Part shown: positions 2,331 through 31,110 of the stretch, piece after piece | Layout: every line of letters begins with the position of its first letter | Numbering within the stretch: the first letter of the stretch is position 1 | Source: Clostridia bacterium | Lineage (GTDB): Bacteria > Bacillota > Clostridia > Oscillospirales > CAG-272 | DNA length: 32,101 bases | Direction of reading: 5' to 3' | Assembly (NCBI GenBank): GCA_017503865.1 | Contig: JAFVSI010000017.1 | Location: 1 to 32,101 of the forward strand | Translations under genes and position numbers: made by a program | Notes under the pieces: generated by a model | Told to the model about the DNA's origin: nothing | What the model saw: only the letters and a program-made list of their open reading frames with translations | Database searches by the model: none

Positions 2331-3554
2331 TTAGTTAAATACCGCACAGTAAGCACTGAAAAACACATCTGCCATCTGCTTATAGCCTGCATCAGAGGGC
2401 TGTACTGCCCCCTTCTGCACAGTTTGCGTTACCGACACTCTGGGATTTACGGCAATCTCCTCGGTCTCCATATTATTCTCACTGTCGAAACAGGATAAAA
2501 GGGGAACAAAATAAACGTTGCTAAATCCCTTTGCAGTAATATTTTTTACAATTGTTTTGGCAGCCGAAATTATTATTTTATCGCACTCGGACTTCGTCTT
2601 TCCCGAAAAATCAAGTCCTGCCCCCTCTGTTGTCTGTCGTGCCATTCCGTCTTGAGTTCCCCAAAGCGGTGGTAAAACGACGAATACAGGACAGGCATTA
2701 TCAAGTCGTATAGACGTTATCATCTCGCAAAGATTTTCAGCAAGCTGCTCGGCAGAAACATTGAGAAGCTCACGTTCACCGAAAAATAGCTGAACACCGC
2801 TAACCTCGGTAGCATAATGGAACCATGACCATTCAAATCTTGTTCCTTGACAGAACATATTTGACTCCAATTCACCGCTTTCAAGATCCTCTGCATCATT
2901 TGAATAAAGAAAGGTATTTGTGTCCCATCCCGCAACGCCGGCATGGTAAATCCCCGATTCGCTTTCGCGGGGTCCAACAAATTCAATCGCTGAGCCCGAA
3001 AGATTTTGAACCTCCTCAAGCCAAGACTTGCCGGCTGAATATACGTCTCCCAAGGGGCATATCATTAAATCTTCAAGAGCTTCGGTTGAAGCAATTTTAA
3101 CATTAGCCACCTTGCTGTAAACAAGTTGATCCAAACGGTCATATATTTGAAGCGTCAAGGGATACTCTCCTATAAAATCATAATCCCCCGTAATACTGAA
3201 TTTTCTGCCGTATGCCTTGCCGACATCGCATATCCATTTAAAGCGATACTTGTCGGAATCGGCACAAACACTTGCGTTGTATATCTCTACCGTTCTGCCA
3301 AGTGCAACGTATATTTCGTCGGGAAGGAAAGCTGTCACCTCAGCTATTGTACCGCTGCCGACCGACTCCGAACCGTCAAGTGCCAAGCTCCAATGTTCGT
3401 TTTCCTCGCTCGGCTCTTCGCCTACGTTTGAGTCGTTTGCAACCCACAAACAGCCCGAATGAGTTACCGCGTCAAGGCTCTCGTACTCTACGTCCTCGCT
3501 CCATCTTCCCTTAGGTGTTAACGCCACCTTTCCGATATTTATAGTTTTACTCAT
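2331..3554 (-). CDS. Phage-tail-fibre-like protein with a degenerate SGNH-hydrolase domain
   Basis: A 407-residue protein of unknown function. Residues 1-60 resemble the small tryptophan-rich carbohydrate-binding module found at the ends of phage tail proteins (GRW, CLWVAND, HWSLALDG). Residues about 65-155 look like an Ig/PKD-type beta domain. Residues about 160-407 match the SGNH (GDSL) domain of phage tail and secreted Clostridia proteins: GKSWLEEVQNLSG, EFVGPRE, VQLFFGE, FVVLPP, YFVPL, VNPR, PSDAGYKQMAD. The catalytic positions are changed: the block I GDS serine is GDV, the usual GTN asparagine block reads GER, and the expected VHPS histidine is VQPS. It overlaps the upstream collagen-like gene by eight bases (ATGAGTAA), has a GGAGG site, and shows no signal peptide. 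Binding rather than hydrolysis is the likely role (inference). Confidence 0.7.
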   Translation of the reverse strand: MSKTINIGKVALTPKGRWSEDVEYESLDAVTHSGCLWVANDSNVGEEPSEENEHWSLALDGSESVGSGTIAEVTAFLPDEIYVALGRTVEIYNASVCADSDKYRFKWICDVGKAYGRKFSITGDYDFIGEYPLTLQIYDRLDQLVYSKVANVKIASTEALEDLMICPLGDVYSAGKSWLEEVQNLSGSAIEFVGPRESESGIYHAGVAGWDTNTFLYSNDAEDLESGELESNMFCQGTRFEWSWFHYATEVSGVQLFFGERELLNVSAEQLAENLCEMITSIRLDNACPVFVVLPPLWGTQDGMARQTTEGAGLDFSGKTKSECDKIIISAAKTIVKNITAKGFSNVYFVPLLSCFDSENNMETEEIAVNPRVSVTQTVQKGAVQPSDAGYKQMADVFFSAYCAVFN

Positions 3555-4404
3555 TTATTGTTACCTCCAAAAATCCTTTGTCGCTGAGAGAAAAGCTCAG
3601 GTTGTCAAAAGTGTCGCTGACAGTCATAGTAAGCATTCCACTTTTTACGTCAACCGCAAAGAAAGCAACGTCAAAGCCGCCTGCTTCTCCCTTCTCTCCC
3701 GTGTCTCCTTTATCTCCTTTTTCCCCCTTATCTCCCTTATCTCCCTTTTCTCCTTTATCGCCTTTTTCGCCCACTTCTCCTTTTATATTTCCTACAAATC
3801 TCCAATGGTCTCCCTCTTCGGCAATATAAATGTCATAAGTATCGCTGTTTAAATAAAAATCGTTTGGCACTGCCCCGTCAACGAAAAGATAAACGTCATT
3901 GTTTCCCGACACCGAGTTTCCTACAAACCATCTGTTTCCGTCGACTCCGTTAATTCCGTCGACTCCGTCTTTACCATCAAAAACTCCGCTATCGGCGTCT
4001 TCCCTTACAGAATTTGCAGTATCCACTGCCTTTTTCATATAAGAAAGCACCTGTGCTATCTCGTTTGGGCTCGGCTTTGCGGCAGAATTGTCCACATCAT
4101 CAAGAGTACCGAGAACGTCTATCTCACCACTTACGGTCAAAAGCTTTTTGTCGTCGTCATATCCGACTATGGCGTATTTCGTTCTTCCCCTCACACTCAT
4201 AACCTCGTTTGGAATTACGATAGGACTTCCGTTATAGACCACAGAGACCGCTTCTCCTTCGGGGGGATAAAAAATGACCTTTTTTCCAAGTCCCGACCAT
4301 TCATCGCTGAAGCTTATCTCGAGCGACTCTATACCGTAGCTTCCCTTAGTTCCCGCAATTATCTTGCGAGGGGATATTGTGTAATAATTCGCACTTATCT
4401 TCAT
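3547..4404 (-). CDS. Collagen-like tail-fibre/baseplate-type protein
   Basis: A 285-residue protein with no recognised enzyme domain. The N-terminal 100 residues are beta-rich and resemble the attachment domain at the start of phage baseplate or receptor-binding proteins (MKISANYYTISPRKI, then FSDEWSGLGK). A short helical stretch follows at about 112-137. A first collagen-like segment occupies residues 144-157, a small globular insert (about 158-208) ends in DHWRFVGN, and a second run of about eleven Gly-X-Y triplets rich in GEKGDKG covers 209-243. A 40-residue C-terminal cap follows. Such proteins form trimeric fibres. No signal peptide or anchor is visible. It is translationally coupled to the SGNH-like gene. 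The start is supported by AAAGGAG seven bases upstream. Surface or particle-bound adhesion is an inference; no other phage gene lies nearby. Confidence 0.7.
   Translation of the reverse strand: MKISANYYTISPRKIIAGTKGSYGIESLEISFSDEWSGLGKKVIFYPPEGEAVSVVYNGSPIVIPNEVMSVRGRTKYAIVGYDDDKKLLTVSGEIDVLGTLDDVDNSAAKPSPNEIAQVLSYMKKAVDTANSVREDADSGVFDGKDGVDGINGVDGNRWFVGNSVSGNNDVYLFVDGAVPNDFYLNSDTYDIYIAEEGDHWRFVGNIKGEVGEKGDKGEKGDKGDKGEKGDKGDTGEKGEAGGFDVAFFAVDVKSGMLTMTVSDTFDNLSFSLSDKGFLEVTINE
3676..3780 (-). repeat. Gly-X-Y coding polypurine repeat
   Basis: Tandem 9-base units of the type GGAGATAAG/GGAGAAAAG encode the collagen-like triplets of the preceding entry. The coding strand is almost entirely purine. 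Units are imperfect, but the 9-base periodicity is clear. Confidence 0.85.
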
Positions 4405-4567: not shown

Positions 4568-5500
4568 TTACTGCTGGCCTGTGAGCTTTGCGATTTCCTC
4601 TGCAAAGTTGTCCTCTCTCTTTTCGATACCCTCGCCCTTTTCGAAACGAACGAAAGATACTACCTTAAGAGAAGCTCCAAGCTCCTTAGCGGTCTTCTCA
4701 ACGTACTTGCCTACCTTAAGATCATCATCCTTGATGTAGTCCATATCGAGCAAGCAGTTGTTCTCATAGAACTTACCGAGCTTACCGATAACCATCTTCT
4801 CAAGGATCTGCTGGGGCTTGCCTGCGTTCTTGGGATCAGCTGCCATCTGAGCGAGAACGATTTCCTTCTCGGACTCGATAACGTTTGCGGGAACGGAGTC
4901 TCTGTCAAGGTAAGGAGTTGTGTAAGCACCGATCTGGAGAGCGATGTTCTTTGCGAACTCTACGAACTCTGCCTTAGCAGCGGTGTCAGCGTCTGTGTCG
5001 AACTTTGCAACAACGCCGATAGAACCGTTACCGTGAATGTAGGTGCTGGTAAGTCCCTCAACTACTACGAAACGGCGGATGCTTATCTTCTCACCGATAA
5101 CGAAGATCATCTCCTTGAGCTTTGCATCAACGGTAACACCACCGTCAATGTAGTCGGAAGCAAGAAGCGCGTCAACGTCAGCGGGCTTGTTTGCGATAAC
5201 TGTCTTAAGAAGGTTCTTTACGAACTCCTGGAATGTTGCATTCTTTGCAACGAAGTCTGTCTCGGTGTTAACCTCGATCATAGCGGTTACGTCGCCGTCC
5301 TTGAGGATATCAACGATACCGTCAGCAGCGATTCTTGTTGCTGCCTTAGCCTCTGCCTTGAGCTCACCTCTCTTACGAAGGATGGTTATTGCCTCCTCCA
5401 TATCACCGTTAGCCTCAACGAGAGCCTTCTTACACTCCATCATACCGATACCAGTCTTTGCACGGAGCGCTGCAACGTCTTTTGCTGTTATATTAGCCAT
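4568..5500 (-). CDS. tsf: Translation elongation factor Ts
   Basis: Guanine nucleotide exchange factor that recycles EF-Tu-GDP to EF-Tu-GTP in the cytoplasm. The 310-residue protein begins with the UBA-like N-terminal domain (MANITAKDVAALRAKTG) and carries the diagnostic TDFVAKN motif at residues 81-87, which with the following helices contacts the EF-Tu GTPase domain. The core and coiled-coil regions follow. It is somewhat longer than the B. subtilis protein (about 293 residues). It is second in the universal rpsB-tsf operon, 73 bases after rpsB, and has an AAAGGA site. Its partner EF-Tu is encoded at the right edge of this window. Codon use is that of a highly expressed gene. Confidence 0.97.
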   Translation of the reverse strand: MANITAKDVAALRAKTGIGMMECKKALVEANGDMEEAITILRKRGELKAEAKAATRIAADGIVDILKDGDVTAMIEVNTETDFVAKNATFQEFVKNLLKTVIANKPADVDALLASDYIDGGVTVDAKLKEMIFVIGEKISIRRFVVVEGLTSTYIHGNGSIGVVAKFDTDADTAAKAEFVEFAKNIALQIGAYTTPYLDRDSVPANVIESEKEIVLAQMAADPKNAGKPQQILEKMVIGKLGKFYENNCLLDMDYIKDDDLKVGKYVEKTAKELGASLKVVSFVRFEKGEGIEKREDNFAEEIAKLTGQQ

Positions 5501-5517
5501 TTTAGTTATTTCCTTTC

Positions 5518-5578
5518 TAATTATTACGAAATTTTAGAGCCGATTACTTCAGTAATTATTACAACAGTAATTATTACT
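5518..5578. repeat. Repeated short palindrome between rpsB and tsf
   Basis: GTAATAATTAC (itself a palindrome) occurs twice as part of a 13-base direct repeat (5551-5563 and 5566-5578), with a third near-copy at 5518-5528. The first copy overlaps the rpsB stop region. The purpose is unknown; it may affect mRNA processing. Confidence 0.6.
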
Positions 5579-6317
5579 CAGCGTCAGTAGCCTCAGCTTC
5601 AGCCTCGGTTGCCTCAACCTCTTCAGCTACAGCCTCACCCTGTCTGCCCTCGATCATTGCGTCTGCAAGAGCTGCAGAGATGAGCTTGATAGCACGGATA
5701 GCGTCGTCGTTACCGGGAATGATGTAGTCAGCATCGTCAGGATCACAGTTGGTGTCAACGATAGCGATTACGGGAATACCAAGCTTCTTAGCCTCGAGAA
5801 CTGCGTTTCTCTCCTTCTTGGGGTCAACGATAAAGATTGCGGAAGGAAGCTCCTCCATAGTCTTGATACCGCCGTAGCTCTTCTCAAGGTCGAAAATTTC
5901 CTTCTGCTTCATAGCAACTTCCTTCTTGGGAAGAAGCTCGAATGTGCCATCCTCCTGCATCTTCTCAAGGCTGTTGAGACGAGCGATGGACTTCTTGATG
6001 GTCTTGAAGTTTGTCATCATACCGCCGGGCCAACGAACGTTTACATAGTACATTCCGCAACGCTGAGCCTCTTCCTTGATTGCGTCAGCTGCCTGCTTCT
6101 TTGTACCTACGAAAAGAAGTGTTCCACCCTGCTCGGAGAGCTCACGAACAAAGTTGTAAGCCTCTTCGAACTTCTTAACGGTCTTCTGAAGGTCGATGAT
6201 GTAGATGCCGTTTCTTTCGGTAAAGATGTACTCCTGCATCTTAGGATTCCATCTTCTTGTGTGGTGTCCAAAGTGAACACCTGCTTCAAGCAATTGCTTA
6301 ATTGAGATTACAGACAT
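5574..6317 (-). CDS. rpsB: 30S ribosomal protein S2
   Basis: Structural protein of the small ribosomal subunit, bound with S1 near the mRNA exit side. The 247-residue sequence has the canonical S2 opening [18 protein letters not shown], the RRWNPKM and IIDLQKT segments, FVGTKKQA, and the closing INPGNDDA-like region [13 protein letters not shown]. An acidic alanine/glutamate-rich tail follows. The start is set at 6317 because AGGAGGA lies just upstream and S2 homologues begin there; the longer reading frame back to 6401 runs through a structured leader and is not credible as protein. It is first in the rpsB-tsf operon, with its own promoter and a leader of about 120 bases that may mediate S2 autoregulation (inference). 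Confidence 0.97.
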
Positions 6318-6440
6318 TTTATGTCCTCCTTCGGTTGATTTCCACCACGTCGTCCTCGGCATATTTATTCCTCTCGTGAGAAACACCGATACGCCCGCCA
6401 CAACGTGTGTGATATTTTATTTTGCGGATTTGCCGCATTG
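6318..6440 (-). promoter_or_regulatory. Structured rpsB 5' leader
   Basis: From the predicted transcription start to the start codon the minus strand can form GGCGTAT (6389-6395) with ATATGCC (6358-6364), enclosing a second stem TTTCTC/GAGGAA (6378-6383 with 6368-6373, ACGA loop). A small TGCGG/CCGCA hairpin is near the 5' end. This is consistent with a ribosomal-protein autoregulatory leader, but I do not recognise a named family. Confidence 0.45.
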
Positions 6441-6446
6441 CGAGAT

Positions 6447-6475
6447 ATTATACCATAATTATAATCGCGACGCAA
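6447..6475 (-). promoter_or_regulatory. rpsB-tsf promoter
   Basis: Minus-strand TTGCGT (6470-6475), 17-base spacer, TATAAT (6447-6452) preceded by TG for an extended -10 (TATGGTATAAT). The same extended box occurs before ruvC. Confidence 0.8.
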
Positions 6476-6534
6476 TAGGCATTTCCTAAATTAACAAATT
6501 ATTTACAATTTCAGCTATTAAACCCTCAAAAATT

Positions 6535-9321
6535 TCATTTTTCCTTACTTATCTGCTTTGCGGGACGCTCAATTCTCACAGCACCCGCGAAAAAATACAC
6601 AGTAGCACTGAGAAGGGGCGGCACAAATGACAGCCACAAGTAAAGCATACTCGAAAATCCTTCTATATCAAAAAGCTTTTCAAGGCTCGGAACCGTAAAG
6701 CAAAGAATGCAAAAAACGAGCATAAACGAAAGATATACGATGCCAAGCACACGGGGCTTTTTCTTTAGAGTTTTCTTGAGACGCGGCAAATTCACTATTC
6801 TCAAATCGAATTTGAGGCAAAGGAAAACGGCGACGTGGAAAAAAACAAACGTAACGAGTGAATACTCGGTCTTATCTATGTATTTTGGAACGTTCGGGAA
6901 AAGCGAGACTATCTCGGGAAGAAGTGACGCAAAAAGTGCTCCGCCCGCAAAGCAGATTATGCGTGTCAAATTTTGGTTCAGCGGGAAAAGCATTTCGAGC
7001 GTTGCCTCGAGGTAAGACCTCTTATGAATATTCACTTCCCTGTCGCTTATATAGTAGAGCAGAACGAAGAGGTCTGCGATCATTCCGCCAAGGACTATAT
7101 GCCTTACGTCAAGTGCCGTACCACCGAAAAGCATAGGAACCATAACGAGCACGAGTCTTGTAAGCTGGATACATACGAGATACCTGAAAAATCCCGCAAC
7201 TCTCACCGCTACCGATGTCGCGTTTGAGAATGCCGAGCTTAACGAGGCGAAGCCGCCCCTTCTCTCGAGCTTTTGCTTTTTGTCAGGACGGGGGATAAGC
7301 ACGTCAGCCTTGCGACGCTCGCTCTCAGCTACCTCTGCCCTTGCGGGATCGTCAAAGGTATGGAGCGTGTCTATCTCCTCTTCAAATCTTCCTTTTAATT
7401 TATAATCGCAAGAGGAAAAGCTTACGTAAACGTCTGCCATTCGGTATATCTTTTCAAACCGTTCGTCAAAGCCGCAGACTGCAACTCTCTCTCTGTTTGC
7501 GTGAGCCACACCGATAAGGTCGCATATCTCCTTGTCGGAGAAAGACTCATACGTGCCAAAGCTTCCTAATTTATATGAAAGAGGCAGCCCGTTTTTCATA
7601 AGGGCATCTCTTGTCATCGCCTCACCGCAAAGCTCATTTGGATAAACGCCGCAAGACGTCACTTTACCGTAAGCAAGGGTATTCTTAAAGAAAATGGGTT
7701 TTACACCGAGAGCTTTAATTTTTTCTATTGCTACGCAGGCGTCTTTGTCGTACGCCTCTCCGAAAACGAGCATACCGACGAAGGTGCGTTCACCGTATTC
7801 GCTGCCCACGAGCCTCGAAACTGTAAAGACCAGAACACTTCTGCCGCCGTTTGCCTTTGTGCGAAAAGCATTCATAAGTCTGCCCCTTGCGTCCTCGTCA
7901 AGAGGAGCTCTTCCGCCGTCAAAAAGGCAGTCGCTGCAATCGTTAATAATGCTGTCGCTATAGGCGACCGAAAGCATATATTTTTCACCGAATTCACTGT
8001 AAAAAAGCTTATCGTCGATATCTGTGCCGTTTCTCGTAGCCGCTGAAAAGCCCGTGATATTACACCTTATTCCAAGTGCTCCCTTGTCGGCAGAGGATCT
8101 TTCTATAAATTCCTTTATCGCACCGTCAAAGTGCTGTGAGCTTTCGGGCCCAGCCGAAAGAGACGTCCTTTGAGCACTGTCGTAAAGAGCCACAAGCTCG
8201 GCAAGACGCTTTTCCGCCTTGCCTATTCTCTCCCCTTCCTCAAAGGAGCATTCACCGTCAGCGGTAACGCTTCTTTCAAAATGAAGGATACCGTCGGTAA
8301 AAACAGCATTGTCAAGAACGAAAAGATATTTTACGTCGGCAAGCTTGTCCATTGTATCGCAAGAACGCACAACAGAGGGCTCGTATGCCGAAAGGCACCG
8401 CTTCATCGACACGGTATAAAACGCCTTACACACCGTCACCGCCGTCTGCGTCATCGACGTAGCGGCAATTGCAAGTGCCGTCATAAACGATACAAAAAGA
8501 GAAAGTGTGGTATTCCCCAAAATAACGCTCAGCACGCTGAAAGGAAGGATAACGAGCATAAGAATTATGCCGAGCCTTCTGCAGTAGTTTTTAAAGAGAG
8601 TGAGAAGTCGCGGTATCCGTCCGTGTGCTTTCGACTCAGACGGTAAAGCACCGAGCTTCGCACCGACATATGTATAATCGCCCGTCGCGGTAACTATCGC
8701 TCTCGCTGTGCCCGAAACGACGACAGACGCGGCGTGTACCGTATTTGAAAATCTCGTGGGATCGTACTCGTTTTGGGGAACTCTGCTCTCAGCCGCCTTG
8801 TCAAGCAAAATATATTTGCCCTTCTCAACAAGCATTTTTACCTTTAGCATACTCGAGCTTACAAGACGTGCGTCAGCGGGAACAATGTCGCCCTTTTGCA
8901 ATAAAATTACGTCTCCCGCAACTACATTCTCGGCTAAAACCGAATAAACTCTTCCCTCGCGTATGACCTTGCACCTCGGCAAAAAGACTCGCTCAAGTGA
9001 GTCACAGAAAAACTCTGAGCGGTAATACAAAAGGAAGGAGACGACAAGATTAAGAACAAGAACAACCGCAGTTACCGTTCCCACCTCTCTATAATCAAAA
9101 AAGAGTGCGAGGAAGGACATCGCGAGAAGCATTACGTAAGCAAAGTCGGAGACTATCTCGCCAAGATAGGAGATAGGCGTCCTTGCGGGCACGAAAAAGA
9201 CCTTGCCGTTCTTCTGAGAAAAACGCCAACGAGCCGCCTTGCGGGAAAGTCCCGAGGCGGCGTTGGTCTTAAGTTTATTTTCTATCTCATTCAAAGAGAG
9301 CAAAAACCATTTTTCGTTCAT
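6535..9321 (-). CDS. P-type ATPase homologue lacking nearly all catalytic motifs
   Basis: A 928-residue multi-pass membrane protein with the full domain order of a P2-type cation ATPase. It has an N-terminal cation-ATPase domain (about 1-45), two membrane helices (about 58-100), an actuator domain keeping GDVILLQKGDIVPAD (136-150), helices at about 250-305, phosphorylation and nucleotide domains, and about six C-terminal helices (705-915). The active motifs are gone. TGES reads EKGK near 166-169, the TM4 PEGLP site reads ATSMTQ near 287-292, and DKTGTLT reads DNAVFTD at 337-343 (only the Asp remains). The ITGD site reads FFKNT near 544-548, and GDGVND is replaced by CGFDERF near 616-622. The frame is uninterrupted. 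Ion pumping is therefore unlikely; a scaffold or regulatory role is an inference. It is last in the ruvC-clpE unit, 37 bases after the clpE-like gene, with a weak ribosome binding site (GGTAAC). Confidence 0.8.
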   Translation of the reverse strand: MNEKWFLLSLNEIENKLKTNAASGLSRKAARWRFSQKNGKVFFVPARTPISYLGEIVSDFAYVMLLAMSFLALFFDYREVGTVTAVVLVLNLVVSFLLYYRSEFFCDSLERVFLPRCKVIREGRVYSVLAENVVAGDVILLQKGDIVPADARLVSSSMLKVKMLVEKGKYILLDKAAESRVPQNEYDPTRFSNTVHAASVVVSGTARAIVTATGDYTYVGAKLGALPSESKAHGRIPRLLTLFKNYCRRLGIILMLVILPFSVLSVILGNTTLSLFVSFMTALAIAATSMTQTAVTVCKAFYTVSMKRCLSAYEPSVVRSCDTMDKLADVKYLFVLDNAVFTDGILHFERSVTADGECSFEEGERIGKAEKRLAELVALYDSAQRTSLSAGPESSQHFDGAIKEFIERSSADKGALGIRCNITGFSAATRNGTDIDDKLFYSEFGEKYMLSVAYSDSIINDCSDCLFDGGRAPLDEDARGRLMNAFRTKANGGRSVLVFTVSRLVGSEYGERTFVGMLVFGEAYDKDACVAIEKIKALGVKPIFFKNTLAYGKVTSCGVYPNELCGEAMTRDALMKNGLPLSYKLGSFGTYESFSDKEICDLIGVAHANRERVAVCGFDERFEKIYRMADVYVSFSSCDYKLKGRFEEEIDTLHTFDDPARAEVAESERRKADVLIPRPDKKQKLERRGGFASLSSAFSNATSVAVRVAGFFRYLVCIQLTRLVLVMVPMLFGGTALDVRHIVLGGMIADLFVLLYYISDREVNIHKRSYLEATLEMLFPLNQNLTRIICFAGGALFASLLPEIVSLFPNVPKYIDKTEYSLVTFVFFHVAVFLCLKFDLRIVNLPRLKKTLKKKPRVLGIVYLSFMLVFCILCFTVPSLEKLFDIEGFSSMLYLWLSFVPPLLSATVYFFAGAVRIERPAKQISKEK

Positions 9322-9358
9322 AAGTTACCAAACTTTTTTGCCAAATGCGGCATTTATT

Positions 9359-11683
9359 TTAGAGGCACTCGATAACGAGCTTGTCGTTCTCCTCGGAGTA
9401 GCCTATCATAACGGTTGCTATCTTGCCCGAATAATTTGAGATCATCTTCTCGGCAAGAACATCCTCGATCTCGCGACGGATAAATCTACGCATATTTCTC
9501 GCACCGAACTTGTAGGAATACGAATTCTTTGCCACGTATCTTGCCGCAGCATCGGTGTAATCGAGTGTTATCTCCTTCTCCGAAAGAACGCTGCGAAGCT
9601 CGCCGAGCATTATCTTTGCTATCTCGACAAAATCGTCCTCGCTAAGAGAGCGGAAGGTGATTATCTCGTCAACTCTGTTTATAAATTCGGGACGAAGGAA
9701 GCTTGAAAGTGCCTTCATCGTCTTATTCTCGGTCAGACTTTGCTCGTCGGAGAAAAATCCAACGGTAGATGCCGAATTATCCGAGCCCGCATTCGTCGTC
9801 ATAACGATAATAGTGTTTTCAAAGTTGACCGTCTTTCCCGAAGCATCGGTAATTCTTCCGTCGTCAAGTATCTGGAGAAGAATATTAAGAACGTCGGGGT
9901 GTGCCTTCTCTATCTCGTCGAAAAGGACTACCGAATAAGGACGTCTTCTTATCTTCTCGGTAAGCTGTCCCGCCTCGTTGTAGCCAACGTATCCTGGGGG
10001 AGCTCCTATGATTCTCGATACCGAATGCTTTTCCATAAACTCAGACATATCGAGTCTTATAAGCGTTTCGGGAAGCTTAAAAAGGTCAGCCGCAAGAGTT
10101 TTTACAAGCTCGGTCTTACCCACGCCCGTAGGTCCTGCAAATATGAAGGAAACGGGCTTACGCTTATAGGAAATTCCCGCACGGCTCCTCTTTATAGCCT
10201 TTGCGACAGCCTTAACTGCCTCGTCCTGCCCTATGATACGCTCACGAAGACGGCTCTCAAGGCTGTCGATTCGCTGAAATTCGTTCTCGGTTATGCTCGA
10301 CGCGGGAACACCCGTCCATATTTCAATAACCGAAGCTATATCCTCAGTAGACAGCTCAATGCTCTCGCACGAAGGCTCTATCTCGCGAAGTCTCTCGGAG
10401 AGCTGTATCTCCTTTGCCTTGATGTTGGCTATCTCCTCGTAATTTCTCTGTACTATTTTTTCGTCCGACGAAGTATCCGACTCTATCTTCTCTCTGCTGT
10501 CCTTAAGACTGAGAAGCTCCTCGCGTATCTTTTGTGCCTCATTGAGCACCGAGCTTGAAAGTGAAAGATAGGACGCCGCCTCGTCAAGAAGGTCTATCGC
10601 CTTGTCGGGCAGGTATCTGTCGGTTATATATCTCTCGGAAAGAACTACCGTTTTTCTGACAACGTCCTCGGGTATTCTTATCGAGTGGAATTCCTCGTAA
10701 TAGTGCTTGATTCCGCCAAGCATCTCGACAGTCTCGTCGATAGAAGGCTCTTCGACCGTTACGGGCTGGAAGCGTCTCTCAAGAGCGGTGTCCTTTTCGA
10801 TATACTTTCTGTACTCGTTAAGCGTTGTAGCACCGATAACTCTTACCTCGCCACGTGAGAGGGCGGGCTTGAGAATATTAGCCGCACTCACGCTTCCCTC
10901 GGAGTCACCCGTGCCGACAATGTTGTGTACCTCGTCAATAACGAGAATAACGTTGCCCGCTTCCTTTACCTCGTTAAGAAGTCCAAGTATTCTCGACTCG
11001 AACTGACCTCTGAACTGTGTTCCTGCAACGAGTGCGGTGAGGTCGACGAGATATATCTGTATTCCCTGAAGCTTGTAGGGCACCTTTCCGTCGGCTATCC
11101 TCTGTGCAAGAGCCTCGGCAATTGCCGTCTTACCGACACCGGGCTCACCGATAAGACAGGGGTTGTTCTTCTGACGGCGGCAAAGAATTTGTATAACTCT
11201 GTCAAGCTCACGCTCGCGGCCTATAATTCTGTCAAGCTGACCGTCAGAGGCCTTCTTTGTAAGATTGCGGCAGTAAGTATCAAGAAATTTATTTTTCTTT
11301 GATTTTGCGTTTTCTTTTCTTTTATTCCTCTCGGACGAGCCTCTCGCACCCTCATCAGGTGCTGGCATAGGCGTTCCCGCCTCGCCGAATATCTGAGGAA
11401 AGTCTATCGCGGGAGCTCCGCCGTCCTCGCCCTCGTCTGCGTCGTTGGCAAGAGGCAGATTGCTTGCCCCCTCGAGCATTTCGTTGACTTCCTGCTCCAT
11501 ATTCTCGAGCTGCTCGGGCGTAATGCCGAATTTGTCCATTACGTTGTCGAGCATATTGTCAACAGGGACGCCCATCTGCTTTGCACAGCTTATGCAAAGT
11601 CCCTCGCTCAGTTTATTGCCGTTTTCAATTCTCGTCACAAAAACGACGGCAACTCGCTTGTGACATTTTGAACACATTACCAT
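9359..11683 (-). CDS. ClpE-like AAA+ unfoldase with N-terminal zinc finger
   Basis: ATP-dependent unfoldase that would feed proteins to ClpP. The 774-residue protein lacks the usual Clp N domain. Instead it starts with a four-cysteine zinc finger (C4, C7, C30, C33) like ClpE and McsA, then an acidic linker to about 130. AAA module 1 has Walker A GEPGVGKT (179-186) and Walker B ILVIDEVH; a short helical middle insertion covers about 380-440. AAA module 2 has AGPTGVGKT (516-524) and [17 protein letters not shown] tripeptide at 641-643 sits where the ClpP-binding loop occurs, so coupling to ClpP is likely. The ATG at 11683 follows AAGG; a second ATG two codons on is possible. It lies 21 bases after pgsA. 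ClpE proteins are usually stress-induced under CtsR, but I see no CtsR-type repeat here. Confidence 0.85.
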
Positions 11684-11704
11684 AATCTAAAAACCTTAAC
11701 TTTA

Positions 11705-12301
11705 TTATAAAGATTCGTTTACCTTTTCTGTTTCGTTGACCTTTTTCTTCGGACGTTTAAGCGAAGAATAGTAGTGCTTTACGTATGCCGCAAAAGCACC
11801 GAGTGCAAACACCGCTGCGGGAATGCAGAGTGCCGCATATGCAAAAGCGTTGCCCGCAAGATAATTCTTAAAGATAATTGAAAGTGCAACGGTCAAATAA
11901 AACAGACACGCCGCCGCCTTTCCGTACCATTTGCTGACGACCACTACGTTGCGTCTCTTGATAACGATAAGCCCCATAACGAGCGTCACTATCTCCTTAA
12001 AGAAGAACACAAGAGCAAACCAATTCGGCAAGATAGCCTTCATACTGAGGATAAATACGACCGTGCATTGCATCAGCTTATCCGCAAAGGGATCGAGTAT
12101 TTTTCCAAGCTCTGTTATCCAACCGTTTTTCCTTGCCAGAAAACCGTCAAGCACGTCGGTAGCTCCCGCCAAAAGAAATATGAAGAGAGCCCAGTAAAGA
12201 GTTGAGTCATTATCTTGTAAAGAGAGATATATAAAAACAAATACAAGCACTATGCGAACGATGCACAGCATATTAGGAATCCATTTTAATTTTTCTTTCA
12301 T
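11705..12301 (-). CDS. pgsA: CDP-diacylglycerol--glycerol-3-phosphate 3-phosphatidyltransferase
   Basis: Integral membrane enzyme of phosphatidylglycerol synthesis: it transfers the phosphatidyl group from CDP-diacylglycerol to glycerol-3-phosphate. The 198-residue protein has several membrane helices and a complete CDP-alcohol phosphatidyltransferase signature: D49, D52-G53, A56-R57, G66, D70 and D74 (DVLDGFLAR, then GKILDPFAD). The C-terminus is basic and cytosolic. Size and motif fit bacterial PgsA. A cardiolipin synthase of the same superfamily is a less likely alternative. It lies 30 bases after cvpA in the long minus-strand unit. Confidence 0.9.
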   Translation of the reverse strand: MKEKLKWIPNMLCIVRIVLVFVFIYLSLQDNDSTLYWALFIFLLAGATDVLDGFLARKNGWITELGKILDPFADKLMQCTVVFILSMKAILPNWFALVFFFKEIVTLVMGLIVIKRRNVVVVSKWYGKAAACLFYLTVALSIIFKNYLAGNAFAYAALCIPAAVFALGAFAAYVKHYYSSLKRPKKKVNETEKVNESL

Positions 12302-12331
12302 CTCAAACTTCCCAAAATTTTATTTTTTTAA

Positions 12332-12832
12332 TTAGAACAAGGAAATTCCCTTATCCCCTATAAATCCTACGAAATACTTAAGTATCGAAGAATCCTCTAT
12401 CATATTGCCGATATTCGTAATTATCTCGGCATTCTCATTGACTACACCTACGACCGTAACGAAAAGCTCGAGCAAAAGTGTAAACAAAAAGATAACCGCA
12501 AGACCGCCAACAGCACCGACAACGGCACCGAGCAGATGGTCGAGTGCCCCAACGTTTAAAACCTTCGTGATGAGTTTTGCCAACCCACCGAGAATTATTC
12601 GAAGCAAGAGGTAAAGCAAAACGAAAGTGAGTGCCGTTCCTACTATAGGTGCGAATTTACCGAGCACGTCACCGAGCAGCGTCTCACCGAGCATTCCGCC
12701 AAAGAGCCTTGAAAGAATGATTGCCGCAAAGAGCGATCCCCACTTTGAAAGTATGCCGAGAAGCCCCTTTATCGCACATATTATAACGAATATCGCAAAT
12801 ATTGCCAAAGATAAAATATCAAATCCGTTCAT
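12332..12832 (-). CDS. CvpA family membrane protein
   Basis: A 166-residue protein with four hydrophobic segments beginning at the N-terminus (ILSLAIFAIFVIICAIKG, then LFAAIILSRLFGG, LTFVLLYLLLRIILGG, VIFLFTLLLELFV). Gly-rich turns and the order of segments match the CvpA/colicin V production family. Members are linked in other bacteria to membrane or envelope homeostasis, but the molecular activity is not established. The ATG at 12832 is preferred over the upstream TTG at 12847 because GGGGGA sits at the right distance before it. It starts 11 bases after the DUF5711-like gene, so the two are probably translationally linked. Confidence 0.8.
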   Translation of the reverse strand: MNGFDILSLAIFAIFVIICAIKGLLGILSKWGSLFAAIILSRLFGGMLGETLLGDVLGKFAPIVGTALTFVLLYLLLRIILGGLAKLITKVLNVGALDHLLGAVVGAVGGLAVIFLFTLLLELFVTVVGVVNENAEIITNIGNMIEDSSILKYFVGFIGDKGISLF

Positions 12833-12843
12833 AAAATCCCCCG

Positions 12844-14157
12844 TCAATCCTTAAATTTAAGATATACAGCCTTTGCCTCGGCACAAACGAGTGCCGTTTT
12901 GCCGTCATATATAAGCATCTTACCGTCCTGAGACTCGAGCTGTTCGTATTTGGAGTCGGAAAGGTCAACTCTCATCACTCCTTCTGAATTTTTTATAAAT
13001 GCGTATCCCGAAGAAAGTGAGAGCTGCTCAATGTAAGACAGAACAGTATCATTATATATCAGTTTTCCTTTTTTGTCAAACACCAGAAGGGTATTTCTAT
13101 CGCCCGAAATTCCGTCATTTACGCTCACTGCGGCGTATTCACCGTCGCACCAAACGGCACTGACGACGCCCCCCGAGTATCCGTCGCTTTCGCTCTTCTC
13201 GACAAGGCCTTTGTCAAAAATTCTCACCGCACCGTCGGTAACAGCGGCAAAGCCACCGCCGCGAAGGAAGGAGCAAGCGAGCGGGAATTCTCCCGTGTAG
13301 GAATATTCATAAAGCTTTTCGTGCTTTTTTATATCGTAAAACACGACCTTTGTCGAGATAATTCCGTTATCGGTGTCGCAATATACCGCACCGAGCCTTT
13401 CCGCGTCGTCGCTAAGCGAGATATCAACGGCAAACGAGCCCTTTTTGAAGTTCACAAGCTTTTCGAAATTCTTATTGTAAACGATTATCTCCGACTCGTA
13501 TTTTTCCGAGCGGGTCAGCACCGCAAAGCTTCCCTCGTCCGAAAAAGAGGCGGCTGTAACGGGATAGTCAAGCTTCTCGCTATACACCTTTGCAAATGAA
13601 TTATAAAGTGCCATATTGCCGTCTCCCATATCGTAGACGAGTAGATATTTGTCTGAGGACACGGCAAAGGGCTTTGAATAAGTATCGTTATTGTTGAGCG
13701 TTCGTCTTCCCGTTGCGGTAAACGCCGAAACGTTTGAGCGGCTCACAACTGCAAGCCCACCTCTGTAAAGACAAAAGCTCTGGTCGCTCGAGGCATCATA
13801 CGAAAGAGTCTCGTAATTCACGCTCTCGGTATCCACTGCAGTCGAAAAATCTTTGATAAGGAAAAAGAAATTATCGTAAGTAATATGCTTGAAATTTACC
13901 GTGACCGAAACTATCGAGAACACGGCAAGGAGTGCGAGAAACACACGCTGAAGCACCTTGTACCACGCACAAACGCTTGCGTAATAAACGTCACCCGCCG
14001 CGTCAAAATTTTCCTCCCTCAGCACCTTTTGCTTTTCGGGCTCGGTAGTGAAATATTTTGATATAACGCCCGATAGCTTATCAAAGCGAGAGTCGGTATT
14101 TTCGGCATTACCGTCAGTACTCTTTTTCTTAAAAAACGAAAAGAAATCTTTTTTCAA
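12844..14157 (-). CDS. DUF5711-like membrane-anchored beta-propeller protein
   Basis: A 437-residue protein of unknown function. It has a charged cytoplasmic N-terminus (about 65 residues), a single transmembrane helix (about 68-88, QRVFLALLAVFSIVSVTV) and a large extracytoplasmic domain. That domain is built from repeated four-stranded blades, each with a short motif such as KYLLVYDMG, EIIVYNKNF, KVVFYDIKK, AVRIFDKG and TLLVFDKKGK. This pattern suggests a beta-propeller like WD40/PQQ-type folds and resembles the DUF5711 family common in Clostridia. No catalytic motif is visible. It lies between truA (24 bases) and cvpA. An envelope scaffold or sensor role is a guess. Confidence 0.7.
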   Translation of the reverse strand: MKKDFFSFFKKKSTDGNAENTDSRFDKLSGVISKYFTTEPEKQKVLREENFDAAGDVYYASVCAWYKVLQRVFLALLAVFSIVSVTVNFKHITYDNFFFLIKDFSTAVDTESVNYETLSYDASSDQSFCLYRGGLAVVSRSNVSAFTATGRRTLNNNDTYSKPFAVSSDKYLLVYDMGDGNMALYNSFAKVYSEKLDYPVTAASFSDEGSFAVLTRSEKYESEIIVYNKNFEKLVNFKKGSFAVDISLSDDAERLGAVYCDTDNGIISTKVVFYDIKKHEKLYEYSYTGEFPLACSFLRGGGFAAVTDGAVRIFDKGLVEKSESDGYSGGVVSAVWCDGEYAAVSVNDGISGDRNTLLVFDKKGKLIYNDTVLSYIEQLSLSSGYAFIKNSEGVMRVDLSDSKYEQLESQDGKMLIYDGKTALVCAEAKAVYLKFKD

Positions 14158-19221: not shown

Positions 19222-21813
19222 TCAATATCTGAATATTGCTCTATTATTAAAATTTATTTGATACGGATTCTTAATAAAACAAGAAGGATTATCCTTAGAA
19301 AAGAAAATATAAATCGAATGTTTTGCCCTAGTGAGAGCAACATAGTAGAGGCGGGCCTCATCTTCCATAATTGTTTGCTCATTTTCACCAAAAACACTAT
19401 ACAAATTACTATCGGGATGAAAGATGGGAAAAGAGTTTTCATCCACATCAGTTAAAATCACGATATCTGCCTCCTCGCCCTTAGAGCTGTGAACGGTTTT
19501 CACAGAAAAATCAGGAGAAGCTGTTTTGCATAATCTAGGATGCTTAAGAATCTTCTCAATCTCATCAAGATCCTTGCCAAGAAAACTGCCTTTTCTATTA
19601 AGAATCATTATTTTCTTTCCGGGATTTTCATTGATGATCTTAGTACAAACTTTTATATATGCCTGAACGTTACGCTTGTTAACGGTTTCGCTTTGCTCCC
19701 AATCTCCGCCTTCACTTACCAACCAATCGAAATCATCTATATCTATATCAAACAGGTGTGCGTCTATAGGCTCTTCCTTGAAAACTCCCGAATCTGAAAG
19801 AAAACCTCTTTGCTCCTTTCCTCTTATACCAAAACGCTTCATAAAATCTCCCGCGTTCTTAACAATATGATTCTCACATCTATAATTTGTTCCAATATTG
19901 TAAGATGTTGAATTGGAAAAATACCTTTTAAAATCAAGAAAGAATTTCAAATCGGATCCGGCAAATCGGTTGATTGCCTGCCAATCGTCTCCTACGCAAA
20001 ACAAAACGATATCAGGGTTACGTGATAGAATTGCACAAATAAGATTGTGAAATAGTTCGCTAAAATCCTGATATTCATCTATTAGTATCCATTTCAAATG
20101 CTTAATGCTGGAATCGCATTCACCCGAGCGTATTTTTTTCGCCGCAAAATTCAAACAGTGGTTAAAATCGAGCTTATATTCCTTGTATTGGGGAAATTCA
20201 TTAGAATTTCCAAAAAGAACCTTGTTATACTCTTGATAAACCATATAACCAAGACGGAGAAAATTTTTTTCACGCTCGTCGTATATTTGGTTTGCCCGTT
20301 CCACAAATAGTCTTTCGTCGTTAAGATATATTTGCTGGAATTTATCAATGAACTGCCTGATCTGCTTTGTAAAATAGTCCTCTGCGTTTTTCCACACATT
20401 TTCCATAATAGTATCTTCAGAAAGTTTTTTACATTTGACTCCATTAGACTCAAGCAGTTTTTTTAACTTTAGCTCAATATCACTTCGCTCACTTGACTGA
20501 AAATAATCAGGATCTGTTTCTATAAGCTTTTTTATTGATTTAAAATCGTTTACATATCTTTGCGTTACGTTAAGCTTATGTCTCCAAGAATTCCAAAATG
20601 AGCGCTTCCACTCCTTTGTACGTGCATAAGCATCATAGTCGCCAACTACCCTTGTGAACTCATCTTTTTTTGGTGCTGTTTCACGACCGGTAATACCCCA
20701 ATGCTCCCAAATCAAATTATAATCCTCAAGATAAAAATCGGGAACAGTTTCTTTCTTTGACTCGTTCAAGCTTTTATATTTTAAAAACTCACTATCGGTT
20801 AAATTATGGTTGTTAAGATCAATTTTGTTCAAATAAAAGTGACGCTCGTATTTGTATCGAATACCGTGCTCAAAAAGAAAATCGGCAATGATCTTTTCAG
20901 GAATTGATTTTACGTGCTCTCCCTTCAAGGTACGATAGCGACTATTGCGAACAAACTGATAGTAATGCTCTATGGAATTGAATTTTTTACGATCAATTTT
21001 TAAAGTATCTGATAAAAAATATTTCCTCAAAATTTTTTCAAATTTAGGATTTTCGGATCTAAGCTTAGAAATGATTTCTTTGATCAATCTTGTTCTAACA
21101 GGAGCAGGCTCATCTACAAGTATTTTACCGCAGTCATCTCCCAAAGTAGCTTTAGCATATGCGTGAAAGGTACTGACAACGTCAAGCTCACGAGTTTGTG
21201 ACTCTCCATCTACTTTGCATTTTGAGTTTAGTCTGTCACGTATTTCCTTTGCTGCCCCACGATTAAAGCAAAAAGCAAGAACCTCATCCTCTTTGATGCC
21301 TTGGTTAAAAAACAGATCTATCAATTTAGCAGTTAATACTCTTGTTTTTCCTGATCCCGCTCTAGCAGTAACAATGGAATTTGTGGATGAAATAATGGCA
21401 TCTGCTTGTTCATTGTCAAGCACAAACGGTTTTCCATCCAGTTCAACTCTTGTCGCGAAAAAATTTTTCTTTTCTTCCCGTATGCAATCCAGACAAATCG
21501 TTTTATCATCATCAAGAAGATTCTTTTTACAAGAGGGACAAACCTTTATTTCACCGCTCTCAGGGATTAATATAGTTCCAAGTTGCAGGGCCTTCTTCAA
21601 CATCCACGCCCTACCACCACCGATATACTCGCCGGTTTCATCTTCTATCAAATTAACTTTGTAGTCGTTTCCTCTTTGTTCAAGGTTTGCTATGCGTGCC
21701 ACTATTGTACAACCTGCATCGTTTCCGTTTTTTTCAACAAAGAGAACGATCATACCTTCTTTTATGTTTTGAGGTATTTCGTACGATGAATATGAAAAAT
21801 CCATTATTTTCAT
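19222..21813 (-). CDS. UvrD/PcrA-like SF1 helicase with zinc ribbon and possible nuclease insertion
   Basis: An 863-residue DNA helicase of superfamily 1A. The N-terminal about 85 residues are unrecognised. A zinc ribbon follows (C92, C95, C107, C110: CPSC and CLDC). Helicase motifs then run: Walker A ARAGSGKT (about 150-157), TFHAYA, IDEYQD (578-583), GDDWQAINRF (608-617), TNYRCE, TVHSSKGEEAD and YYVALTRAKHS. Between motifs Ic and II is an insertion (about 300-380) with FLFEHGIRYKYERHFYL and VPDFYLEDYNLIWEHWG. This recalls the PD-(D/E)XK-like insertion of other bacterial UvrD-type helicases, although the canonical lysine is unclear. The start is 21813, since AGGAG lies eight bases upstream; the GTG three codons earlier overlaps that site. 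Its ribosome binding site overlaps the end of the upstream gene. Base composition is visibly more AT-rich than all neighbours, suggesting acquisition. A repair or defence role is unproven. Confidence 0.85.
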   Translation of the reverse strand: MKIMDFSYSSYEIPQNIKEGMIVLFVEKNGNDAGCTIVARIANLEQRGNDYKVNLIEDETGEYIGGGRAWMLKKALQLGTILIPESGEIKVCPSCKKNLLDDDKTICLDCIREEKKNFFATRVELDGKPFVLDNEQADAIISSTNSIVTARAGSGKTRVLTAKLIDLFFNQGIKEDEVLAFCFNRGAAKEIRDRLNSKCKVDGESQTRELDVVSTFHAYAKATLGDDCGKILVDEPAPVRTRLIKEIISKLRSENPKFEKILRKYFLSDTLKIDRKKFNSIEHYYQFVRNSRYRTLKGEHVKSIPEKIIADFLFEHGIRYKYERHFYLNKIDLNNHNLTDSEFLKYKSLNESKKETVPDFYLEDYNLIWEHWGITGRETAPKKDEFTRVVGDYDAYARTKEWKRSFWNSWRHKLNVTQRYVNDFKSIKKLIETDPDYFQSSERSDIELKLKKLLESNGVKCKKLSEDTIMENVWKNAEDYFTKQIRQFIDKFQQIYLNDERLFVERANQIYDEREKNFLRLGYMVYQEYNKVLFGNSNEFPQYKEYKLDFNHCLNFAAKKIRSGECDSSIKHLKWILIDEYQDFSELFHNLICAILSRNPDIVLFCVGDDWQAINRFAGSDLKFFLDFKRYFSNSTSYNIGTNYRCENHIVKNAGDFMKRFGIRGKEQRGFLSDSGVFKEEPIDAHLFDIDIDDFDWLVSEGGDWEQSETVNKRNVQAYIKVCTKIINENPGKKIMILNRKGSFLGKDLDEIEKILKHPRLCKTASPDFSVKTVHSSKGEEADIVILTDVDENSFPIFHPDSNLYSVFGENEQTIMEDEARLYYVALTRAKHSIYIFFSKDNPSCFIKNPYQINFNNRAIFRY

Positions 21814-21824
21814 GTAATCCACTC

Positions 21825-29463: not shown

Positions 29464-29471
29464 CTTTATGT

Positions 29472-29553
29472 CTCATCTGTCAGGAATTAGCACCTTACAA
29501 AAAGCAGGTTGCCGTGGTTTCACAGAGCCTATCTCTCCACCACTCTTGATAAG
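29472..29553 (-). ncRNA. SAM-I (S-box) riboswitch aptamer
   Basis: The minus strand shows the S-box core in order: CTTATCAAGAG at the 5' side, GGTGGAGGGA-like GGTGGAGAGATAGGC, GAAACCACGGCAACC, AAGGTGCTAATTCC, and GATGAGA closing P1 (CTTATC with GATGAG). It sits between a good promoter and metK. SAM binding stabilises P1 and lets the terminator form. Confidence 0.97.
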
Positions 29554-29592
29554 AATTTCTATATTTTTTTGAATATGTTTTTCTCAATTAAG

Positions 29593-30915: not shown

Positions 30916-30971
30916 AAGAAAGTCTAAAAAATCAATTGTTGTCTGCATCAGGCAGACGAATAAGATTATTT

Positions 30972-31093
30972 ATATCTTCTCCCATCCGGACTTTACCGTC
31001 GGTGTAGGAATTTCACCTACTCGGCACACTTTTTTAGTTGTGTGTTCGCGGACTTTTACCGCCGGTATGGAATTTCACCATCCCCAAAGATAT
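30972..31093 (-). ncRNA. FMN riboswitch (RFN element)
   Basis: The minus strand carries the RFN core: GGGGATGGTGAAATTCC, ACCGGCGGTAAAAGTCCGCGA, GTAGGTGAAATTCCTAC, CCGACGGTAAAGTCCGGATG and GGAGAAGA. P1 is ATATCTT (31087-31093) with AAGATAT (30972-30978). It precedes ribU and should turn it off when FMN is high. Confidence 0.97.
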
Positions 31094-31110
31094 TTATTAT
31101 TTTGTTTTAA

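Follow-up and report, generated by a model that had tools for sequence, protein, structure and literature searches.

The question raised by this locus is what job remains for a full-length transport ATPase whose catalytic motifs have been erased. The gene lies on the minus strand at 6535..9321 of contig JAFVSI010000017.1 (assembly GCA_017503865.1) from a Clostridia bacterium (Oscillospirales; CAG-272). The whole stretch analysed, 32,101 nucleotides, is called the window, and the product of the gene is designated P0001. Membership of P0001 in a family of pseudoenzymes is well supported by the sequence comparisons below. The explanation that we favour, at a chance we put at about even, is that P0001 is a conserved, transport-dead pseudo-pump that acts in the membrane as a partner to, or a regulator of, the ClpE-like unfoldase encoded by the adjacent clp gene. 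The features of the gene on which the argument turns are these:

6535..9321, minus strand: pseudo-P-type ATPase P0001, 928 amino acids (open frame; Pfam E1-E2_ATPase; family profile against lmo0841)
8866..8916, minus strand: retained actuator signature GDVILLQKGDIVPADAR, residues 136-152 (sequence and alignment)
8815..8826, minus strand: lost dephosphorylation loop, EKGK where pumps have TGES, residues 166-169 (alignment)
8443..8463, minus strand: lost ion-site motif of transmembrane helix M4, ATSMTQT where an intact paralogue has AAIPEGL, residues 287-293 (alignment)
8290..8316, minus strand: lost phosphorylation motif, LDNAVFTDG where pumps have DKTGTLTEG, residues 336-344 (alignment)
7156..7158, minus strand: Arg722 in M5, where intact paralogue L003 has Glu and L004 has Ala (alignment)
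7072..7074, minus strand: Asp750 in M6, Asp in both intact paralogues too, covarying with residue 722 (alignment)

The 928-residue open frame reported by the original prediction, which had omitted the strand, was confirmed; the chance that a random frame of 928 codons lacks a stop is about 4e-23 at the window's GC content of 45.5%. The Pfam domain E1-E2_ATPase (PF00122) matches P0001 at residues 115-308 (E 3.5e-19), and a phmmer search showed that its closest relative of solved structure is the Listeria Ca2+-ATPase lmo0841 (E about 3e-24). A profile of 54 homologues aligned with lmo0841 at 12-658 and 707-926 (412.7 bits) and scored 369.5 bits against SPCA and 295 bits against SERCA. P0001 also matches many P-type models in NCBIfam, every one below its cut-off, the top match by E-value being TIGR01647 (P3A H+-ATPase) with 80.8 bits against a cut-off of 615.5. 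Hydropathy analysis revealed M1, M2, M3 and M5-M10; M4, expected at about 275-312, falls in a less hydrophobic stretch below the script threshold. When nine other family members were scanned with Pfam, eight also matched Cation_ATPase_N and Cation_ATPase_C, some below the Pfam cut-off, three gave a weak match to a HAD hydrolase model, and in one (L107) the actuator domain was the sole match, as in P0001. Taken together, these comparisons show at the sequence level that P0001 is homologous over almost the entire chain to P2-type cation pumps. A P-type fold is predicted from this homology; AlphaFold2, fed only three sequences, returned a predicted local distance difference test score (pLDDT) of 39 for the pseudo-ATPase, too low for a usable model. 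An apparent second identical copy, as from a recent duplication, was rejected: contig C5 (G000, L206) is redundant, all 7174 of its bases being 99.986% identical to window positions 5284-12457.

The state of the motifs was assessed in 101 aligned sequences, made up of P0001, 82 fetched loci and 18 later additions chosen because a homologue had been found there, with the two intact P2-type paralogues of the same genome (L003 and L004) as reference. The result showed that DKTGT, TGD and GDGxND are each complete in none of the 101. At the phosphoacceptor position P0001 has Leu336, and Asp337 occupies the Lys position. The earlier statement that the phosphorylation motif keeps its Asp was therefore wrong by one residue, as LDNAVFTDG set against DKTGTLTEG puts Leu336 at the Asp. 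Across the family, the aligned phosphoacceptor is Asp in a single sequence (L055, DREGALT) and Pro in 43 of 101. At the aligned TGE, Glu is present in 14 of 101, the full TGE in six and TGES in none, with KGK in P0001; the M4 site has Pro in two sequences, Glu in 70 and a complete PEG in none, with TQ for PE in P0001. Isolated P-domain residues persist, namely the Asp of TGD in 39 of 101 and the final Asp of GDGxND in 37, and P0001 itself shows nothing resembling either motif when compared with the two paralogues. The actuator signature is retained, with G136, D137, G144, D145 and D150 invariant across 54 aligned, diverse homologues, as are G24, P115, R121 and G204. The alignment thus bore out the rest of the predicted motif pattern: KGDIVPAD kept, EKGK for TGES, ATSMTQ at the M4 PEGL site, and TGD and GDGxND lost.

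L055 is the sequence that retains most catalytic residues, and it looks like an earlier stage of the same loss. An alternative alignment that restores DKTGT or GDGxND was rejected, as these strings are absent anywhere in the 101 sequences; the string TGES is present in L047 and L072, away from the aligned site. In a separate set of order-wide loci, DKTGT and GDGxND are likewise missing from the degenerate copies, while somewhere in the sequence L138 holds the string TGES and L124 PEGL or PEAL. A P-type ATPase that lacks the phosphoacceptor, TGE and GDGxND should be capable neither of catalysis nor of transport driven by ATP. Judged from the alignment, P0001 no longer has the catalytic residues for phosphorylation and dephosphorylation, those of the P domain, or the Pro of M4, and we infer that it cannot pump by the P-type cycle.

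The family shares near full-length homology and the A-domain core with the P2A Ca2+-ATPases (lmo0841, SPCA and SERCA), but differs from them in that no complete DKTGT, TGES, TGD, GDGxND or M4 PEG is found in the 101 sequences and in that the M5 position is basic (Arg or Lys) in 86 of them. Comparison of this position with Asp or Glu in M6 showed both in 86 sequences, the basic residue only in none, the acid only in one and neither in 14. On a tree built without the two columns, four independent pairs were obtained on well supported branches and six on all branches; the second trait was concordant in 3.7 independent pairs on average (sign test p 0.125). The M5-M6 covariation is suggestive and falls short of significance. 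A clade of another family of the order, f19 (L164-L167, L170, L172, L173 and L178), carries Asp at the M4 Glu position and has the M5-M6 Arg/Asp pair replaced by a non-basic residue and Asn, another rebuild of the ion site.

To define the spread of the family, a search was made with a single query sequence, which is likely to undercount. Matches at E <=1e-30 were obtained in 106 of the 246 genomes of the window's bacterial family, its own genome counted, and in 42 of 71 genera; genomes without a match could hold more diverged copies. The 82 fetched loci comprise 80 from the 105 other matching genomes (five more were seen only as table rows and 20 were unread) and two named loci from Oscillospiraceae metagenome-assembled genomes. 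Of the 82 loci, 80 have open frames of 881-1338 amino acids, and the remaining frames, of 828 and 856 amino acids, reach contig ends. In L057, L059, L060, L061, L063, L090 and others the frames run to 1000-1338 amino acids, well past pump length.

Order-wide and class-wide searches, in which two candidates were scored per genome, extended this picture. Ten loci of f19 chosen for high profile scores yielded seven degenerate copies, six of them directly after clp and one at a contig start, and three intact pumps elsewhere. Of 37 genomes searched from 22 other families, 32 were surveyed starting from clp, which showed the degenerate gene in two of three f19 genomes, in the one f16 genome and in one of two f18 genomes; the contig ended less than 2 kb past clp in five of the 32. 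Degenerate relatives are now known from four families of one order. The class-wide search covered 392 genomes; a strict threshold was passed by 16 from outside the order, and all 16 have intact pumps. In a quick unrooted tree of 56 sequences with many long branches, ten intact pumps were split off by a branch with a Shimodaira-Hasegawa-like approximate likelihood ratio test (SH-aLRT) value of 100, a topology consistent with the degenerate group having arisen once.

A conserved clade with the same motif losses, which the original prediction had named as the finding to look for, therefore exists (DKTGT in 0 of 82 loci, aligned Asp in 1 of 101 sequences), and the contrary case, intact orthologues with this copy alone decayed, was not found in the loci examined, the relatives there being degenerate too. 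No intact orthologue directly after clp was seen among the loci examined. Candidates for one were set aside as follows. A 640-amino-acid open reading frame (ORF) with DKTGT in L191 (family f11) scored only 20.5 bits against the family profile, lies several ORFs beyond clp and is probably of another P-type subclass; in L218, from outside the order, clp and an intact pump are about 6 kb apart with other genes between; and in L151, L196, L202 and L190 clp is followed by large ORFs that the family profile does not match, the parts inspected looking unrelated. The window's genome has two intact P2-type ATPases, both away from the clp locus. In L079 (G007), the only locus of the 82 that lists a second P-type ATPase near the degenerate copy, an intact P2-type ATPase gene and the degenerate copy stand tail to tail (4822-7668, plus strand, and 7823-10654, minus strand).

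Selection was measured as the ratio of non-synonymous to synonymous substitution rates (dN/dS) on close pairs, all from the window's own bacterial family. This evidence concerns relatives; the window copy is too distant for an estimate, its nearest relatives in the family search being 33-39% identical and none closer than 39%. Of the 30 closest pairs, 28 gave finite values, which ranged from 0.044 to 0.237 (0.044-0.131 in the ten closest), and three same-genus pairs, which bear indirectly on the window's own lineage, gave 0.18-0.20. The adjacent clp gene gave 0.026-0.179 in the same pairs. When seven pairs were pooled, the most constrained parts were the rewritten phosphorylation region (321-352; 0.053) and M5-M6 (0.065), with 0.10-0.12 for the large cytoplasmic domains and M7-M10 least constrained (0.179). 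The low dN/dS that the original prediction had named as support for a pseudoenzyme family is thus seen in relatives.

The genes closely preceding that of P0001 are these:

9359..11683, minus strand: ClpE-like AAA+ unfoldase with two AAA modules, ClpB D2-small and an N-terminal CxxC...CxxC (Pfam and sequence)
11705..12301, minus strand: PgsA-like CDP-alcohol phosphatidyltransferase, closely spaced upstream (Pfam PF01066, E 6e-33)
12332..12847, minus strand: CvpA-like membrane protein, closely spaced upstream (Pfam PF02674, E 3e-11)
12844..14157, minus strand: DUF5711 protein, closely spaced upstream (Pfam PF18975, E 1e-31)

The name ClpE-like for the clp product is a putative assignment, as are some names of neighbouring genes. 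The ClpE-like gene stops 37 bases ahead of the start of the pseudo-ATPase, and a second Clp gene, 46% identical, is present in the same genome on contig C64. In 78 of 82 loci no more than 235 bp separate clp from the pseudo-ATPase gene that follows it, with a median gap of 22 bp; the gap is at most 60 bp in 66 of the 78, and seven overlap. The four exceptions are L051, cut by a contig edge, and L058, L081 and L084, which have no clp on the fetched stretch. Sixteen of the 18 later-added homologues also adjoin clp, including eight from f19 and one from f16. These very short gaps make co-transcription likely. A pattern scan showed no terminator past the pseudo-ATPase, and rpsB- and tsf-like genes continue on the same strand, so that the pseudo-ATPase may not be the final gene of its operon, as the original prediction had it. 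The linkage to the ClpE-like gene that had been drawn from this one operon is therefore stronger than the window by itself shows. The DUF5711 gene is upstream of clp in most relatives, and the string ecfA-ecfT-truA-DUF5711-pgsA-clp occurs without the pseudo-ATPase in most of the remaining genomes of the 32-genome survey, suggesting that the pseudo-ATPase was probably added behind an older string.

On the favoured explanation, a cation pump gene would have been added behind the ClpE-like gene and would then have lost its catalytic cycle, while a fixed Arg(M5)-Asp(M6) pair would have taken the place of the membrane ion site. Anchored in the membrane, the preserved cytoplasmic surface would dock or regulate a partner, most probably the ClpE-like machine, which it may recruit to the membrane or by which the membrane may tune that machine. 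A role in binding on the cytoplasmic side of the membrane is suggested by conservation of the actuator core and constraint on the new loop at the DKTGT site, together with the coupling to clp. Partnership with Clp, the strongest single candidate mechanism, is proposed from the gene coupling, and the role may be regulatory or that of a scaffold. The account in full is less likely than not: in a bacterial pseudo-pump family new to description, a cation pump would have been acquired behind a ClpE-like gene, its cycle would have disappeared, an Arg-Asp pair would have sealed the ion site, and the protein would now be a membrane-embedded adaptor or sensor connecting the membrane with protein unfolding by Clp.

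Several findings weigh against this explanation. The pseudo-ATPase diverges rapidly, the median pairwise identity among 56 representatives being 21%, and the ratio of its dN/dS to that of clp reaches about five in one pair. Since the ClpE-type protein is 58-73% identical in 18 of 20 genomes, fast divergence of the one beside slow divergence of the other is unlike a tightly co-evolving interface. The sole f18 homologue was found 5.9 kb from clp. Furthermore, 18 chosen genomes of the window's family were examined from the clp side: three have clp directly before rpsB and seven have no homologue after clp, while seven have the pseudo-ATPase and one is cut by a contig end. The retention of clp without the pseudo-ATPase in many relatives implies that clp is independent of it. 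In addition, the survival of TGE in six of 101 sequences points to a graded loss, and the M5-M6 covariation comes from few independent events (p 0.125). An Arg-Asp pair (R695-D730), forming a salt bridge in one state, is also described for the active yeast proton pump Pma1 in the accessible part of PMC8575881, and so the pair alone is no proof of an inert site.

The rival that survives best, possible though rather doubtful, is that the family has a conserved non-pumping job apart from Clp and that the adjacency reflects a shared housekeeping or envelope operon, a reading that overlaps the others. Many genomes across the order have the string ecfA-ecfT-truA-DUF5711-pgsA-clp but lack the pseudo-ATPase, which joined an existing string, as would be expected on this reading; however, the adjacency to clp survives great divergence in 78 of 82 loci and also holds in families f16 and f19.

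It is unlikely that the family works as a transporter not driven by ATP, in which the P-type membrane domain lets ions or protons pass, passively or by secondary transport, or scrambles lipids. The M4 Glu in 70 of 101 sequences and an acidic M6 residue in 87 would suit an ion or proton path, as would the resemblance of the Arg-Asp pair to R695-D730 of Pma1 in what could be consulted of PMC8575881; a lipid role would suit the PgsA-like lipid-synthesis gene nearby and the finding that human TMEM94 holds a lipid beside M4 and shows no ATPase activity (PMC12134183). However, the M4 Pro is present in only 2 of 101 and the M5 position is basic in 86 of 101, M7-M10 are the least constrained part (0.179), and the cytoplasmic domains are constrained (0.10-0.12) with no obvious need for them in a passive path.

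More improbable is that P0001 regulates, as a subunit, one of the cell's intact P2-type pumps, in the way that some active enzymes are tuned by inactive paralogues. In favour of this idea, two intact P2-type paralogues were found in the window's genome, and in L079 (G007) an intact P2-type gene lies tail to tail with the degenerate copy. Against it, P2-type ATPases of bacteria are usually regarded as monomers, and in the other 81 loci the degenerate copy has no second P-type ATPase listed close by.

Finally, a decaying pseudogene or fully relaxed gene, stop-free by luck in this genome, is very improbable and for the family largely refuted: the median identity of 21% between genera and the failure to find the gene after clp in several relatives would fit it, but 80 of 82 loci are open over 881-1338 amino acids with the other two at contig ends, dN/dS is at most 0.237 in 28 of the 30 closest pairs, and nine residues from G24 to G204 are invariant over 54 diverse sequences.

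Among known systems, the nearest analogue is eukaryotic, namely human TMEM94 (the contested 'ERMA'), likened here by its described features. This P-type-like protein of ten helices lacks TGES and showed no ATPase activity, and unlike the family it retains Pro in its M4 motif and an Asp (D417) put forward as the site of phosphorylation (PMC12134183); another paper, in its accessible part, reports it as an active Mg2+ pump (PMC13322241). The P3A pump Pma1 has an Arg-Asp pair in M5-M6 that may correspond to that of the family, but its catalytic motifs are absent from the family (comparison limited to the accessible part of the source). The P6 ATPase CtpE also has a variant membrane ion site, but it keeps PEGL and lacks the M6 Asp, the reverse of the family (PMC10654040, accessible part). 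Investigation of the open-licence literature searched showed no description of a bacterial P-type pseudoenzyme family, and the accessible part of a 2023 review of P-type enigmas (PMC10654040) makes no mention of 'inactive' or 'degenerate'.

Other features of the window were also observed. Between the fba-like and tsf-like genes, two ORFs occupy 2331-4404 (minus strand), one with collagen-like GxY repeats and a weak Pfam Collagen match and the other of 407 amino acids with no Pfam match; together they resemble a small insertion encoding phage-tail or surface proteins. A flavin mononucleotide (FMN) riboswitch at 30970-31095 (minus strand) lies upstream of an energy-coupling factor (ECF) substrate-binding component, and an S-adenosylmethionine (SAM) riboswitch at 29470-29555 (minus strand) lies at the start of a metK-like gene. 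A UvrD-like helicase ORF with a GTG start at 19222-21822 (minus strand) adjoins ruvC and has, by eye, a four-Cys segment near its N terminus.

In the usual view, transport ATPases are archetypal working machines. Inactive rhomboids and pseudokinases are known to reuse enzyme scaffolds. Similarity-based annotation probably labels members of this family as cation pumps. The 101 diverse aligned sequences, a candidate partner in the ClpE-like protein and a covarying pair at the old ion site offer a test set, and the finding bears on the dispute over whether TMEM94 pumps. If true, a clade of P-type proteins kept by selection without the catalytic cycle would mean that bacteria can put the pump scaffold to another use in a similar way.

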